A stretch of DNA of 64,000 nt from Halarchaeum rubridurum (lineage in GTDB: Archaea > Halobacteriota > Halobacteria > Halobacteriales > Halobacteriaceae). Positions 54,408-64,000 of this stretch are shown one piece after another. How positions within the stretch are numbered: the first letter of the stretch is position 1; every line of letters begins with the position of its first letter. The stretch lies in the NCBI RefSeq assembly GCF_014647115.1, contig NZ_BMOO01000002.1:1-64000 (forward strand), in the 5' to 3' direction. The translations under genes and the position numbers were made by a program. A model generated the notes under the pieces. The model saw nothing but the letters and a program-made list of their open reading frames with translations. It had not been told where the DNA came from and ran no database searches.

Positions 54408-55319
54408 CTACAGATACTCCTTCGCAGACTCGATGGCGGTGATGCCGTCGCCGACGCCCGCGCCGATTTCGAAGACGCTGTCCTGTCGGACGTCGCCGGC
54501 CGCGAAGATGCCCTCGACGCTCGACTCCATGTTCGGGCCGACGACGACGGCCCCCTCGTCGTCTAAGGCCACCGCACCGTCGAGGAAGCCCGTGTTCGGA
54601 ACGGAGCCGACGTTGATGTTCAACCCGCCGACGTCGAGCGTCTCCGCCTCGCCCTCGGCGTTCACGACCGCGAGCCCGTCCACGACGCCGTCGCTCCCCA
54701 GGACCTCCGTGACCTCGACGCCCGTTCGGACCGTGAGGCCGTCCGCGTCCGCGACCTCCTCGCGGAACGCCGCGTCGGCCGACAGTTCCTCATCGGGCGT
54801 GAGGAGGAGGACCTCGGAGCCGTACTCCGTGAGGAAGACGGCGTCGATGGCGGCGTGGTTCCCGCCGCCGACGACCGCGAGGCGCTCGCCCTGATAGAGC
54901 GGGCCGTCGCACGTCGCGCAGTGGAAGATGCCGCGCCCCTCGTACTCCTCCTCGCCGGGCACGCCGAGCGGCTCCGAGTGGCTCCCCGTCGCCACGATGA
55001 CCGTCTCCGCCTCGTGGGCCGCGCCGCCCGCGCGGACGACGTGGGGCTCGTCGCCCTCGCCGGGTTCGACGGCCTCGACGGCCTCCAGTTCGACGTCGAC
55101 CTCGTACTGTTCGACCTGCTCGACGAGCCGCGACCGGAGCTCCGTGCCCGCGACGCCGTCCGGGAACCCCGGGAAGGACTCGACCTCGTGTCGGTTCACC
55201 AGTTCGCCGCCGATGGACTCCGCCTCGAAGAACAGCGTGTCGAGCGCGGCCCGGCCGGCGTACGTGCCCGCGGCCAACCCGGCGGGTCCCGTCCCGATGA
55301 TGAGAACGTCGTGTACCAT
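54408..55319 (-). CDS. Thioredoxin reductase-like FAD disulfide oxidoreductase
   Basis: A 303-residue two-domain flavoprotein. VLIIGTGPAGLAAGTYAGRA binds FAD, VVGGGNHAAIDAVFL binds NAD(P)H, and the redox-active disulfide is C134-A-T-C137 in FHCATCDGPLY. GIFAAGDVRQDSVFEIGAGV is the C-terminal FAD motif. It should pass electrons from NAD(P)H to a thioredoxin or a direct protein partner. ATG 55319 follows an AGCTTTTTT box by about 30 nt. It is divergent from the UGSC module across 119 bp, so it could supply reducing power to it; general redox housekeeping is the alternative. Confidence 0.92.
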   Translation of the reverse strand: MVHDVLIIGTGPAGLAAGTYAGRAALDTLFFEAESIGGELVNRHEVESFPGFPDGVAGTELRSRLVEQVEQYEVDVELEAVEAVEPGEGDEPHVVRAGGAAHEAETVIVATGSHSEPLGVPGEEEYEGRGIFHCATCDGPLYQGERLAVVGGGNHAAIDAVFLTEYGSEVLLLTPDEELSADAAFREEVADADGLTVRTGVEVTEVLGSDGVVDGLAVVNAEGEAETLDVGGLNINVGSVPNTGFLDGAVALDDEGAVVVGPNMESSVEGIFAAGDVRQDSVFEIGAGVGDGITAIESAKEYL

Positions 55320-55438
55320 TGTCGCCACGCGCAGGTCCGCGAGAGAGCGCAAAAAAGCTTTCTACCGCCCCGATTCGTGCGATTCGCCCGCGCCGGCGCA
55401 AAGCCCAAGGCGGCCGGCGGAGTAGCCGGCACCGACAC

Positions 55439-56521
55439 ATGGCCCGAGACGACGCCGACGACGAGTCCATAGCGGCGGTTTCGCGTGACCTCTACCGGCA
55501 GGGGATGACCGACGGCCTCCCCGTGATCCCGCCGACGGAGGCGCGCGTCGCGGAGATGCTACGCGGCACCGACACGCCCGACGACGCGGTCATCGGCCGC
55601 CTCGGGAACGACGACAACCCCATCACGGTCGCGGGGCTGGCGTCGAACGCCGTGATGGCGGGCTGTCTGCCCACTCACATGCCGGTGCTGGAGGCCGGCG
55701 TCCGCGCGCTCGCCGACCCGGACTCGAACTCCATCCAGTTCTCCGTCAGCACGGGCGGGTGGGCGTACCAGTGGGTCGTCAACGGCCCCGTCCGCGACGA
55801 CGTCGGGATCGCCGGCGGGACGGGCGCGTACGGGCCGAACTACCGCGCGAACCGGGCCATCGCCCGGGCGCTCGGGATCGCCTACCGGAACACCGCGAAG
55901 ATCCACCCCGGCGAGAAGGACATGGGCGTCATGGGCAACCCCTTCAAGTTCAGCCTGCTCCTCGGGGAGCACGAGGAAGCGAGCCCGTGGGAGCCGTTCC
56001 ACGTCACGGCCGGTCACGACGAGGCGGACAGCACGATCTCGCTCGCCGGGCCGAACAGCTTCGTCCAGTGGGAGCCCGCGGCGCGCGAGGCCGCGGCCGT
56101 CCTCCGCGGGATGCTCGCCAACACGCCGCCGGCGATGGTCGGCGGCGAACAGCAGGGCGGGGACTTCGACCAGACGATCACGTACGTCCTCTGTCCCGAG
56201 AGCATCGACCTCCTCGCGGACGCCGGCCTCTCGAAGCGCGACGTCAAGCGGTACGTCGCGGACAACTCCGCGATCCCGGTCGACGAGTTCCAGAAGGGCG
56301 TCCTCTGGGAGGGCGCACTGGAGGGGTACCACGGCCGCGTCGAGAACGCTCAGGTCCCACAGATCCGGGGCCCCGAGTACGTCCGGGTCGTCGCCGGCGG
56401 CGGCCGTACTGGCCAGTACGACGCCGTTATCGGCCCCTCCATCGGCGGGCCGGTCACGGAGGGAGTCGACTACCCCGACGACTGGCCGGCGCTCGTCGAG
56501 GAGTACGGCGCCGCCGAGTGA
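55439..56521 (+). CDS. UGSC-associated protein A, function unknown
   Basis: A 360-residue soluble protein with no recognised catalytic family. It opens with a helical segment, then MTDGLPVIPPTEARVAEML (24-41), a conserved Cys76 in NAVMAGCLPTHMPVLEAG, DPDSNSIQFSVSTGGWAYQW, RALGIAYRNTAKIHPGEKDM and MGNPFKFS. The same landmarks appear in the gene at 57175, at the same residue numbers at the start, so the two are recent or strongly constrained duplicates, with divergence mainly in residues 235-330. The unknown protein is found beside UGSC-motif proteins here on both sides, so a common complex or pathway is likely. ATG 55439 is preceded by GGAG about 20 nt upstream; the promoter is not clear. Confidence 0.75.
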   Translation: MARDDADDESIAAVSRDLYRQGMTDGLPVIPPTEARVAEMLRGTDTPDDAVIGRLGNDDNPITVAGLASNAVMAGCLPTHMPVLEAGVRALADPDSNSIQFSVSTGGWAYQWVVNGPVRDDVGIAGGTGAYGPNYRANRAIARALGIAYRNTAKIHPGEKDMGVMGNPFKFSLLLGEHEEASPWEPFHVTAGHDEADSTISLAGPNSFVQWEPAAREAAAVLRGMLANTPPAMVGGEQQGGDFDQTITYVLCPESIDLLADAGLSKRDVKRYVADNSAIPVDEFQKGVLWEGALEGYHGRVENAQVPQIRGPEYVRVVAGGGRTGQYDAVIGPSIGGPVTEGVDYPDDWPALVEEYGAAE

Positions 56522-57174: not shown

Positions 57175-58257
57175 ATGTCCCAGCAATCACCAGACGAGCA
57201 GTCGCTAGCGGAGATCAACCAATCGCTGTACGAGGACGGCCTGACGGACGGCCTCCCCGTGATCCCGCCGACGGACGAGCGGGTCGACGAGATGCTGCGC
57301 GGCACCGACAAGCCCCGCGACCACGTCCTCGGCGACCTCGGCAACAACGAGAACGTCATCACGGTCGAACAGCTCGCGTCGAACGCCGTGATGGCGGGCT
57401 GTCTCCCGACCTACATGCCGGTACTGGAGGCCGGCATCCGCGCGCTCGCCGACCCGGACTCGAACTCCATCCAGTTCTCCGTCAGCACCGGGTCGTGGGC
57501 GTACCAGTGGGTCGTCAACGGCCCCGTCCGCGAGGCGCTCGACATCGAGACGAGCTCCGGCGCGTTCGGCCCGAGCTTCCACGCGAACCAGACGATCCCC
57601 CGCGCGCTCGGGATCGCCTACCGGAACACCGCGAAGATCTACCCCGGCGAGAAGGACATGGGCGTCATGGGCAACCCCTTCAAGTTCAGCTTCCTCGCCG
57701 GCGAGAACCAGGACGCGAGCCCGTGGGAGCCCTATCACGTCACGAACGGCTACGACGAGGAGGACAGCACCATCTCGCTCTCCGGGCCGAACGGCTGGGT
57801 GCAGTGGTTCCCCGACGAGAACAACGCCGAGAACGTCCTGCGCAACATGATCGAGAACACGCCGACCTCGATGCGCGCGAGCTCCGGCGAGGACCTCAAC
57901 GCGACGATCACGCACTTCTTCAACCCCTACAACGCCGAGGAGCTGGAGAAGGAGGACCTGAGCAAGCAGGAGGTCAAGGAGTACCTCGTCGAGAACTCCT
58001 ATCGGACCCTGGACGGCTACGAGGAGCCCCGCGACGACACGGGGAAGGTTCCGCCCCGGCAGACCCAGCAGTACGCCGACACGGACGCCATCAACATCAT
58101 CGCCGTCGGCGGCCCGGGTCGCGTGAACGCCATCGCCGGCACCTCCATCGGCGGTCCCGTCACGAAGAAGATCGAGTTCCCCGACAACTGGGACGCGCTC
58201 CTCGACGAGTACGCGCTCGAAGAGAACTGGGTCCCGACCGAGGGCTTCTACGACTGA
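57175..58257 (+). CDS. UGSC-associated protein B, function unknown
   Basis: A 360-residue paralogue of the gene at 55439, placed 19 bp after the UGSC gene and probably co-transcribed with it. Conserved blocks: LTDGLPVIPPTDERVDEML (23-41), Cys76 in NAVMAGCLPTYMPVLEAG, DSNSIQFSVSTGSWAYQWVV, LGIAYRNTAKIYPGEKDM. The middle (about 235-330) differs from copy A: it has a DLNATITHFFNPYNAEELEK stretch and lacks the Cys of LCPESIDLL. The end IAGTSIGGPVTKKIEFPDNW matches copy A (IGPSIGGPVTEGVDYPDDW). The pair could form a heterodimer around UGSC. No secretion signal and no metal motif beyond the conserved Cys are seen. Confidence 0.75.
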   Translation: MSQQSPDEQSLAEINQSLYEDGLTDGLPVIPPTDERVDEMLRGTDKPRDHVLGDLGNNENVITVEQLASNAVMAGCLPTYMPVLEAGIRALADPDSNSIQFSVSTGSWAYQWVVNGPVREALDIETSSGAFGPSFHANQTIPRALGIAYRNTAKIYPGEKDMGVMGNPFKFSFLAGENQDASPWEPYHVTNGYDEEDSTISLSGPNGWVQWFPDENNAENVLRNMIENTPTSMRASSGEDLNATITHFFNPYNAEELEKEDLSKQEVKEYLVENSYRTLDGYEEPRDDTGKVPPRQTQQYADTDAINIIAVGGPGRVNAIAGTSIGGPVTKKIEFPDNWDALLDEYALEENWVPTEGFYD

Positions 58258-62597: not shown

Positions 62598-64000
62598 ATG
62601 GCTGATGATTCATCGGAACGCGACGGGATGGACCGACGAACGTACTTGGGCGCGCTGGGCGCAGCGGGGGCGGCGGGCCTCGCCGGCTGCAACGGTGGCG
62701 GCGGTGGCGGCGGGTCGAGTAGCGAGGACCTGGGCGAGCGAGTGCCGGCGCTGACGGTGGCGTCGCTGGGCGGCGTCGCGGGGGCGTCCTCCATCGAGCA
62801 GGCGAACCAACACGTCGCCAAGCAGATCGACGAGGTGCTCGGCGTCCCGGCGGAGGTGACCATCAAGGAGCTGACGACGCTGTGGAACGAGGCGTACAGC
62901 GACTCCCGAACGTTCAGCTTCCACGTGGACCTCTCCCCGCAGTTCCCGAGCAACCTCGACCCGGACAACCTCCTCTACTCCTACCACATCACGAACGCGG
63001 GCGCGAACGGCGGCCCGAACGTCATCAACTACGCGAACTGCGAGTTCTCCGAACTCCTCGACGAACAGCGCACCGCGTCCTCGACGGAGCAGCGCCGGGA
63101 GTACGTCACGGACGCCCTCTCGACCGCCTCCGAGGAGGTCACGCCAACCACGCTCTGTACGAACACGGGGTCGTCCATCTACCGGAACGACCAGTTGAAC
63201 GCGCGCGACATCGGGCGCGCGGGGCCGGTCGACCGGAACCCGGAGTTCCTCTGGAACACCGAACCCATCAACGGCGCGGACGCGATGAAGTCGAACGTGA
63301 CGCCGGGGAACATCCCGAACGTCGTCTACATGAACAATCGGCCTTCGACGCCGTGGGTGGGGACGGTCTACATGCCCCTCCTCTACCGCGACAAGAACTA
63401 CGAGCTCGCGGCGGGCGCGGCCCAGGATTGGACCGTCGAGGACAGCTACCAGACGTTCACCTTCGACCTCCGCGAGGGCATGACCTTCCACGACGGCAGT
63501 CCGCTCACCGCCGAGGACGCCAAGTGGACGCTGGAGTTCCTCAACGACAACGCCGACACCTTCGCCGTCATCAGCGAATACCCCTACGACACGATTACCG
63601 CCGTCGACGACACGACCCTCCGCGTCGAGATGTCGCGGTCGGCGCCGTCGTGGCTGTCGGCGTTCGTCCCGATCTGGTCGGGCATCCTGCCGAAGGACGT
63701 CTGGCAGGCGGCGGGTGCCGAGGAGGACCCGATGAACGTCGAGTTCGACGAGATAATCGGCTCGGGCCCCTACCAGGTCCGGGACTTCCAGACCCGCCAG
63801 ATTCTCGCCATGGAGCCCTACGAGGACCACTACCTCGACGTCAACGGCGACCTCATCTTCCGGGGCTACTCCGACCGGCAGAGCGCCCGCCGGGCCCTCG
63901 AATCCGGCAGCCTCAACATCCTCCTCAACAGCACCAACGACACGAACGAACAGATACAGAACGCCCTCGGGGACAAGGCGACGGTGGTGACGTCGGACAC
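62598..64000 (+). CDS. Peptide/dipeptide-type ABC solute-binding lipoprotein, lobes apparently permuted, 3' end outside
   Basis: The frame is open from ATG 62598 to the window end (467 codons seen). MDRRTYLGALGAAGAAGLAGC (from codon 11) is a Tat lipoprotein signal with lipobox Cys, so the protein is anchored outside the membrane and hands its ligand to an ABC permease beyond the edge. The segment after about residue 240 (MPLLYRDKNYELAAGAAQDW, then FDLREGMTFHDGSPLTAEDA) is the N-terminal lobe motif of family 5 binding proteins. Before it, residues 60-200 read like the normal C-terminal part of the same family (FPSNLDPDNLLYSY, NYANCEFSELLDEQR, STEQRREYVTDALSTASEEV). The domain order is thus swapped. 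Ligand unknown. Confidence 0.88.
   Translation, partial: MADDSSERDGMDRRTYLGALGAAGAAGLAGCNGGGGGGGSSSEDLGERVPALTVASLGGVAGASSIEQANQHVAKQIDEVLGVPAEVTIKELTTLWNEAYSDSRTFSFHVDLSPQFPSNLDPDNLLYSYHITNAGANGGPNVINYANCEFSELLDEQRTASSTEQRREYVTDALSTASEEVTPTTLCTNTGSSIYRNDQLNARDIGRAGPVDRNPEFLWNTEPINGADAMKSNVTPGNIPNVVYMNNRPSTPWVGTVYMPLLYRDKNYELAAGAAQDWTVEDSYQTFTFDLREGMTFHDGSPLTAEDAKWTLEFLNDNADTFAVISEYPYDTITAVDDTTLRVEMSRSAPSWLSAFVPIWSGILPKDVWQAAGAEEDPMNVEFDEIIGSGPYQVRDFQTRQILAMEPYEDHYLDVNGDLIFRGYSDRQSARRALESGSLNILLNSTNDTNEQIQNALGDKATVVTSD

Follow-up and report, generated by a model that had tools for sequence, protein, structure and literature searches.

Family 5 (SBP_bac_5, PF00496; also cluster C) is a large and widespread family of binding proteins, with DppA, OppA, AppA and NikA among its members. 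In OppA, domain III comprises residues 270-486 (PMC6305025). A natural circular permutation has been described for Tp0684/MglB-2 of Treponema pallidum ('Type Ic / Cluster Bc'), a Type I glucose-binding protein. TpMglB-2 binds ligand, changes conformation and is tethered to the membrane; the permutation relocates N-lobe strands and creates a fourth crossing at the hinge, and the authors raised tethering as a possible reason for it (PMC4990184). This precedent shows that a naturally permuted binding protein can work. Within the open-licence PMC literature, a scope outside which most subscription papers fall, no description of a permuted family 5 protein turned up, and the sole natural permuted binding protein found there was MglB-2, a member of another family (PMC4990184).

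Here we analyze a solute-binding protein (SBP) gene at the edge of the window, by which we mean the whole stretch of 64,000 nucleotides under study (positions 1-64000 of contig C2, NZ_BMOO01000002.1, from a genome of 2.8 Mb). The gene begins with an ATG at 62598 and its frame is open up to the window edge; in the whole genome, the stop ends 391 bases past the window and the product is 597 amino acids long (Table 1). The original prediction held that this protein carries C-terminal-type family 5 sequence first (DPDNLLYSY, NYANCEFSELLDEQR) and N-terminal-type sequence second, and a profile built from 90 canonical proteins confirmed this order. Residues 67-197 match profile positions 348-469 (i-E 4e-11) and residues 245-568 match positions 30-340 (i-E 3e-61), and none of 200 shuffles of residues 61-597 matched the same canonical-only profile. 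Taken in any order, these canonical segments of the 491-position profile are each present once; the outer ends of the profile (positions 1-29 and 470-491) are unmatched in the window protein and largely matched in other permuted proteins.

We also compared the window protein with Pfam SBP_bac_5, which it matched at 134.1 bits against a cut-off of 32.4 and which places it in the family. Only positions 4-286 of the 368 in the model are matched, by residues 272-564, a short way before the end of the protein; a linear match to the whole model, N lobe and then C lobe, was not obtained, and the missing part precedes the matched part in the chain. BLASTP against canonical haloarchaeal relatives returned two reversed blocks (for example, query 226-567 aligned to residues 60-391 of L016, and query 71-180 to residues 403-506). 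By alignment ends, the stretch between the two blocks is 47 residues long in the window protein and 1-77 residues across 37 rows of the main group of permuted proteins, window gene included. The N-terminal-type match ends at residue 568 (C2:64301) and is followed by a tail of 29 residues. At the other end of the chain are RRTYLG and LAGC, which we take to be a twin-arginine motif and a lipobox, and the predicted lipid anchor would sit ahead of the lobe 2 segment.

Table 1. The permuted SBP gene, its parts and the genes downstream. Coordinates are window positions unless prefixed.
Feature	Coordinates	Strand	Basis or location
Permuted family 5 solute-binding protein gene, 597 aa	62598..64000, on to C2:64391	+	Frame read in whole genome
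Putative twin-arginine type signal with lipobox (RRTYLG ... LAGC), aa 1-31	62598..62690	+	Sequence and pattern check
Second half of lobe 2 (domain III), canonical C-terminal segment, aa 67-197, profile 348-469 of 491	62796..63188	+	Canonical-only profile; same mapping on solved structures
Stretch between matched blocks, old C-terminus joined to old N-terminus, aa 198-244	63189..63329	+	Alignment ends
Canonical N-terminal part (domains I, II and first half of III), aa 245 onward, profile 30-340	63330..64000	+	Pfam and profile
Thioredoxin-like frame, CxxC motif	C2:64454-65176 (L004:4455-5177)		Between SBP gene and OppC; judged by eye
OppC	C2:65292-66236		Downstream of permuted SBP gene
Fused OppDF ATPase	C2:66245-68341		Downstream of permuted SBP gene
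DppB	C2:68338-69321		Downstream of permuted SBP gene

The window sequence alone is also compatible with an N-terminal duplication, in which an extra C-terminal-type block lies ahead of a normal protein whose own C-terminal block falls beyond the window. Reading past position 64000 excluded this partial-duplication alternative, as the stop at C2:64391 was reached without a second C-terminal block and the last match in the gene lies at profile position 340 of 491. In addition, no C-N-C or N-C-N order occurred among 200 frames with block matches in 181 loci, and we regard a duplication as exceedingly improbable. Because the stop coincides with the expected start of the second half of lobe 2, and because no second C-terminal block is present, we conclude that this gene encodes a true circular permutation of an SBP_bac_5 protein, which was the reading favored by the original prediction.

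The same reversal was observed in relatives of the window protein. At least two significant stretches against the canonical-only profile were found in all 37 different permuted proteins (the window protein and 36 others), in a run of 38 rows into which the window protein had been entered twice (P0001 and L002). A strict reversal rule was passed by 36 of the 38 rows; L009 and L171 fail the rule yet are reversed, with stretches that share about 20 and 40 profile positions. When a profile of ten permuted proteins, window protein included, was aligned to solved structures, it did so as two reversed blocks (5isu 21-343 then 353-471; 1xoc 33-358 then 370-501; 6i3g 22-329 then 345-465). The block scan of the 181 loci gave 200 frames, a count that includes genes fetched more than once, with the orders N-C (111), C-N, that is permuted (83), N alone (4), C alone (1) and C-N-N (1); without repeats and short matches, there were 109 canonical and 67 permuted block pairs. 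No double or half-permuted intermediate gene was found among these frames. For eight permuted proteins, the best Pfam match breaks off at position 275-288 of 368. None of the permuted proteins scanned matched a Pfam or NCBIfam model specific to the permuted form, and none passed an NCBIfam cut-off. We also noted one permuted gene of subgroup c (L025, G015:C53) whose C block and N block lie in separate frames, and which is probably a frameshifted copy.

These relatives bear on another explanation of the rotated order, namely an assembly error, or a recent recombination between tandem SBP genes, confined to one genome. Tandem SBP genes do exist (L110, L117 and L146, and two adjacent permuted copies in the congeneric species G005), but the two G005 copies (L033 and L008, G005:C2:135185-138944) are 69% and 91% identical to the window gene, and the 67 permuted block pairs among the loci compared are all different. 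Moreover, the genome that holds the window has a second permuted SBP gene (L005:6177-8102, contig C13), which heads its own DppB-DppC-OppDF operon and whose product shares 95.5% identity with a plasmid-encoded protein of Halarchaeum sp. CBA1220. These independent genomes refute an error or event limited to a single genome, to which we give almost no credence. A third SBP_bac_5 gene of the same genome (L006:4791-6728) has the canonical order, and a search of this genome listed one copy of the L033/L008 kind.

To place the cut in the family 5 fold, we used the ends of the profile matches and structural models. Across 39 permuted sequences (37 of the main group, window gene included, and two of a second group), the median start of the first block is profile position 332 (range 288-352) and the median end of the last block is 330 (range 305-346), so that the profile is covered about once; across 36 permuted relatives, the cut lies near position 331. 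The AF2 model of a Halorussus relative (L077, 14 sequences) had a mean pLDDT of 80.7 and a pTM of 0.78, with pLDDT under 50 at residues 1-76 and 96-99. In this model, residues 286-634 match residues 18-355 of 1xoc (AppA; Z 24.1), residues 292-634 match residues 1-345 of 1dpe (DppA; Z 21.1) and residues 284-632 match residues 1-358 of 1ola (OppA; Z 20.7). The in-sequence Foldseek comparison of the L077 model with 1xoc, its top match, gave a TM of 0.39 by query and 0.50 by target; a low value is expected because the chain is rotated, and it is no proof of rotation. A model of window protein residues 46-232 alone was poor (pLDDT 56.4) and had weak PDB matches (best Z 6.5 to 4oet; 5.9 to 5u4o), with most rows listed being family 5 proteins matched in their C-terminal half at low Z. 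No solved structure of a permuted member was among the PDB matches listed (60 of 83 and 60 of 116; PDB of 252,289 entries).

On this mapping, the cut at about OppA residue 358 falls within domain III as delimited above, and lobe 2 is therefore split between both ends of the chain. Thus, where the original prediction spoke of permuted lobes, the rotated order holds and a whole-lobe exchange at the hinge is ruled out, since the break lies inside lobe 2. We propose that a linker would have joined the former N- and C-termini, which both lie in domain I (lobe 1), and that the chain would have been opened at one lobe 2 loop, near OppA residue 358 or DppA residue 345. By this mapping, both lobe-to-lobe crossings would stay covalent, and the protein may fold as a normal two-lobe clamp with these crossings intact. 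Such a clamp would close on its solute and hand it to the neighboring permeases in the manner of canonical members, and the lipid anchor would now lead into lobe 2 rather than lobe 1.

The neighboring genes provide evidence on the role of this protein. The permuted SBP gene heads a complete Opp/Dpp-type operon (Table 1), in which the thioredoxin-like frame gave no Pfam match at E 1e-4. Opp/Dpp permease and ATPase genes were found near the permuted gene in 13 of 16 permuted loci scanned, and the SBP gene comes first, followed by membrane genes and ATPases, in 12 of those 13 (in L095, two permease genes lie ahead). Within the fetched stretch, no transporter genes were found in the subgroup c loci (L069, L075 and L122), as would fit a permuted protein that is a sensor or scavenger and not a transport receptor, and whose permutation is tolerated since import no longer requires it. 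Given that 13 of the 16 loci have transporter genes nearby and that OppC, fused OppDF and DppB follow the window gene, we consider a sensor or scavenger very unlikely. An ordinary importer receptor with a rotated chain is the most economical reading, and we put at roughly 93% the probability that the window gene encodes a circularly permuted substrate receptor of an Opp/Dpp-type ABC importer.

Two possible correlates of the permuted order were rejected. The permutation is not tied to a fused OppDF, as the ATPases were fused in 7, separate in 6 and absent in 3 permuted cases, against 21, 35 and 10 canonical ones. Lipid tethering is not a necessary link, as a crude lipobox pattern scored in 20 of the 37 main-group rows, window gene included, a count to be read as at least 20 because the pattern misses forms such as SGC. 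Upstream of the window SBP gene lie genes for a UGSC protein, a zinc alcohol dehydrogenase, an IclR regulator and an AMP-dependent ligase, and downstream lies a GMC oxidoreductase gene; these neighbors suggest that the permuted SBP operon sits in a catabolic island. A UGSC family gene is flanked by genes for two proteins that are alike by eye (window 55319-56521 and 57175-58257), neither of which had a Pfam match at E 1e-4. Across permuted members, the residues ahead of a conserved DP motif in lobe 2 vary (for example, GRTDRLDP and PQRGLDP). Peptide-binding members presumably have at this site a W..D motif that holds the amino end of the peptide, and the varied residues in its place suggest that many permuted members may not be peptide binders.

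To assess how common the permuted order is, we searched genomes of haloarchaea and bacteria. In the haloarchaeal class, a match at E 1e-30 or better was found in 374 of 391 genomes. By search score, about 309 of the 391 genomes are at the permuted level (2.5e-65 or better) and, in a recount of the table, 65 of the 374 matches are at the canonical level (1.8e-58 or weaker); these counts rest on three candidates scored per genome, with block order checked in a sample only. In a check of 14 genomes at the border, the nine with E values of 1e-65 to 1e-82 were permuted and the five at 1.8e-58 or weaker were canonical. The permuted gene is rare in three bacterial phyla, being found in at least 7 of 299 Bacillota genomes and at least 3 of 246 Actinomycetota genomes (each including the genome at the center of the search, with four further score-passers in Actinomycetota being canonical) and in at least 1 of 249 Pseudomonadota genomes, this one being the center itself; with a threshold of E 1e-65 and four or five scored candidates from each genome, all three counts are lower bounds. 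With a bacterial-led profile, 39 of 392 genomes of the host's own phylum pass 1e-65, 38 of them inside the host's order and one outside it (G1350), whose match is in order over residues 23-538 of 549 and was assigned by score alone. The plasmid matches listed (25 of 425) include some from Nitratireductor, Roseomonas, Neorhizobium, Ketogulonicigenium, Maritalea and Microvirga, which are in order, as a single piece, over 91-93% of the permuted query. The annotated genes in the plasmid rows listed are named 'ABC transporter substrate-binding protein', one row adding 'hypothetical protein'.

We asked whether the permutation arose once or more often, using trees for which all proteins were turned to canonical order. 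In one 53-row tree, the 21 main permuted rows form one clade (support 89/78) adjoining a canonical haloarchaeal group, and two Bacillota permuted proteins, L095 (Sporosarcina quadrami) and L190, lie inside canonical proteins (100/99 and 95/89). The first block of these two proteins starts at profile positions 330 and 332 and their last block stops at 325 and 324, so the second group is cut at the same position as the main group. The type represented by L095 was found in 2 of 249 Bacillota genomes, search center included.

A single event for all permuted family 5 proteins, with the Sporosarcina-type lineage misplaced by its long branch, would explain this identical cut position, and it agrees with the long stem shared by L095 and L190 (1.7 changes per column), with the finding of only two members, and with the 53-row tree that lacks them, in which one change suffices at weak support (38/78). 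However, in the tree that contains them, the starred branches force two changes and 0% of 200 bootstrap trees show one; constraining all 23 permuted rows to a single origin cost 39.9 log-likelihood units (AU p 5e-5, in a test run after this tree had been seen). The rows of both 53-row trees were hand-picked, the later tree having dropped 7 and added 7. We also built a quick tree of 127 rows without L095 and L190 (176 block pairs, 109 canonical and 67 permuted, in NC or CN order with enough coverage, thinned at 70% identity to 90 and 37), in which the permuted rows need 2 changes, and in which the long-branched canonical protein L003 of the host genome and a five-row canonical group lie among permuted rows; when relatives of L003 were added (L183, L184, L186, L187 and L188), the L003 group moved out as a sister group. 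Single origin is rejected by the test, but given the long stem, the hand-picked rows and the differing earlier trees, two independent origins are likely and not proven, and we judge a single event unlikely.

The likeliest path to a permuted gene would be a tandem duplication of an SBP gene followed by loss of the outer parts. On two Chloroflexota contigs, canonical SBP genes stand in tandem (5 on L110 and 4 on L146), and repeats of this sort could give rise to a permuted gene. Taken as a whole, the data lead us to a tentative proposal, to which we give a little less than even odds: that family 5 contains a large, old and unnamed permuted class, present in most haloarchaea and in scattered bacteria, that it arose at least twice independently by breaks at the same lobe 2 loop, that this loop is a privileged break point, and that the receptor presents itself differently to its permeases once its chain ends, and in lipoproteins its membrane anchor, have been shifted to lobe 2. 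If the class is real as described, it probably affects hundreds of haloarchaeal proteins, of which current profiles match only part, and ideas on chain order, hinge and tether could be tested with natural permuted and canonical proteins from the same cell. Independent cuts on two occasions at a single loop, if true, would offer a natural guide to sites that tolerate new ends, which are what designers of biosensors seek.

Among known systems, the closest is SBP_bac_5 itself. The window protein is homologous to this family over nearly its whole chain, the larger part of the permuted relative L077 has the same predicted fold, and the operon partners are the same; the difference is that the permuted chain both starts and ends inside lobe 2, with its block order rotated. 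Among the sequence and fold matches listed, the names are those of family 5-type proteins, and neither MglB nor TpMglB-2 occurs, an absence that excludes nothing. With TpMglB-2, the permuted chain order is a shared property and not a sign of relationship. TpMglB-2 is a Type I sugar-binding protein of a family other than SBP_bac_5, whereas the present cut lies in lobe 2 and, by our mapping, would add no crossing (PMC4990184). Set against the tethering idea raised for TpMglB-2 by its authors, all three named Pseudomonadota permuted members have no lipobox recognizable by pattern. The domain-swapped dimer of pneumococcal AliC, a related oligopeptide-binding protein, also departs from the usual chain connectivity between lobes; there, the swap takes place between two chains at the hinge, unlike the permutation within the gene described here (PMC11192437).
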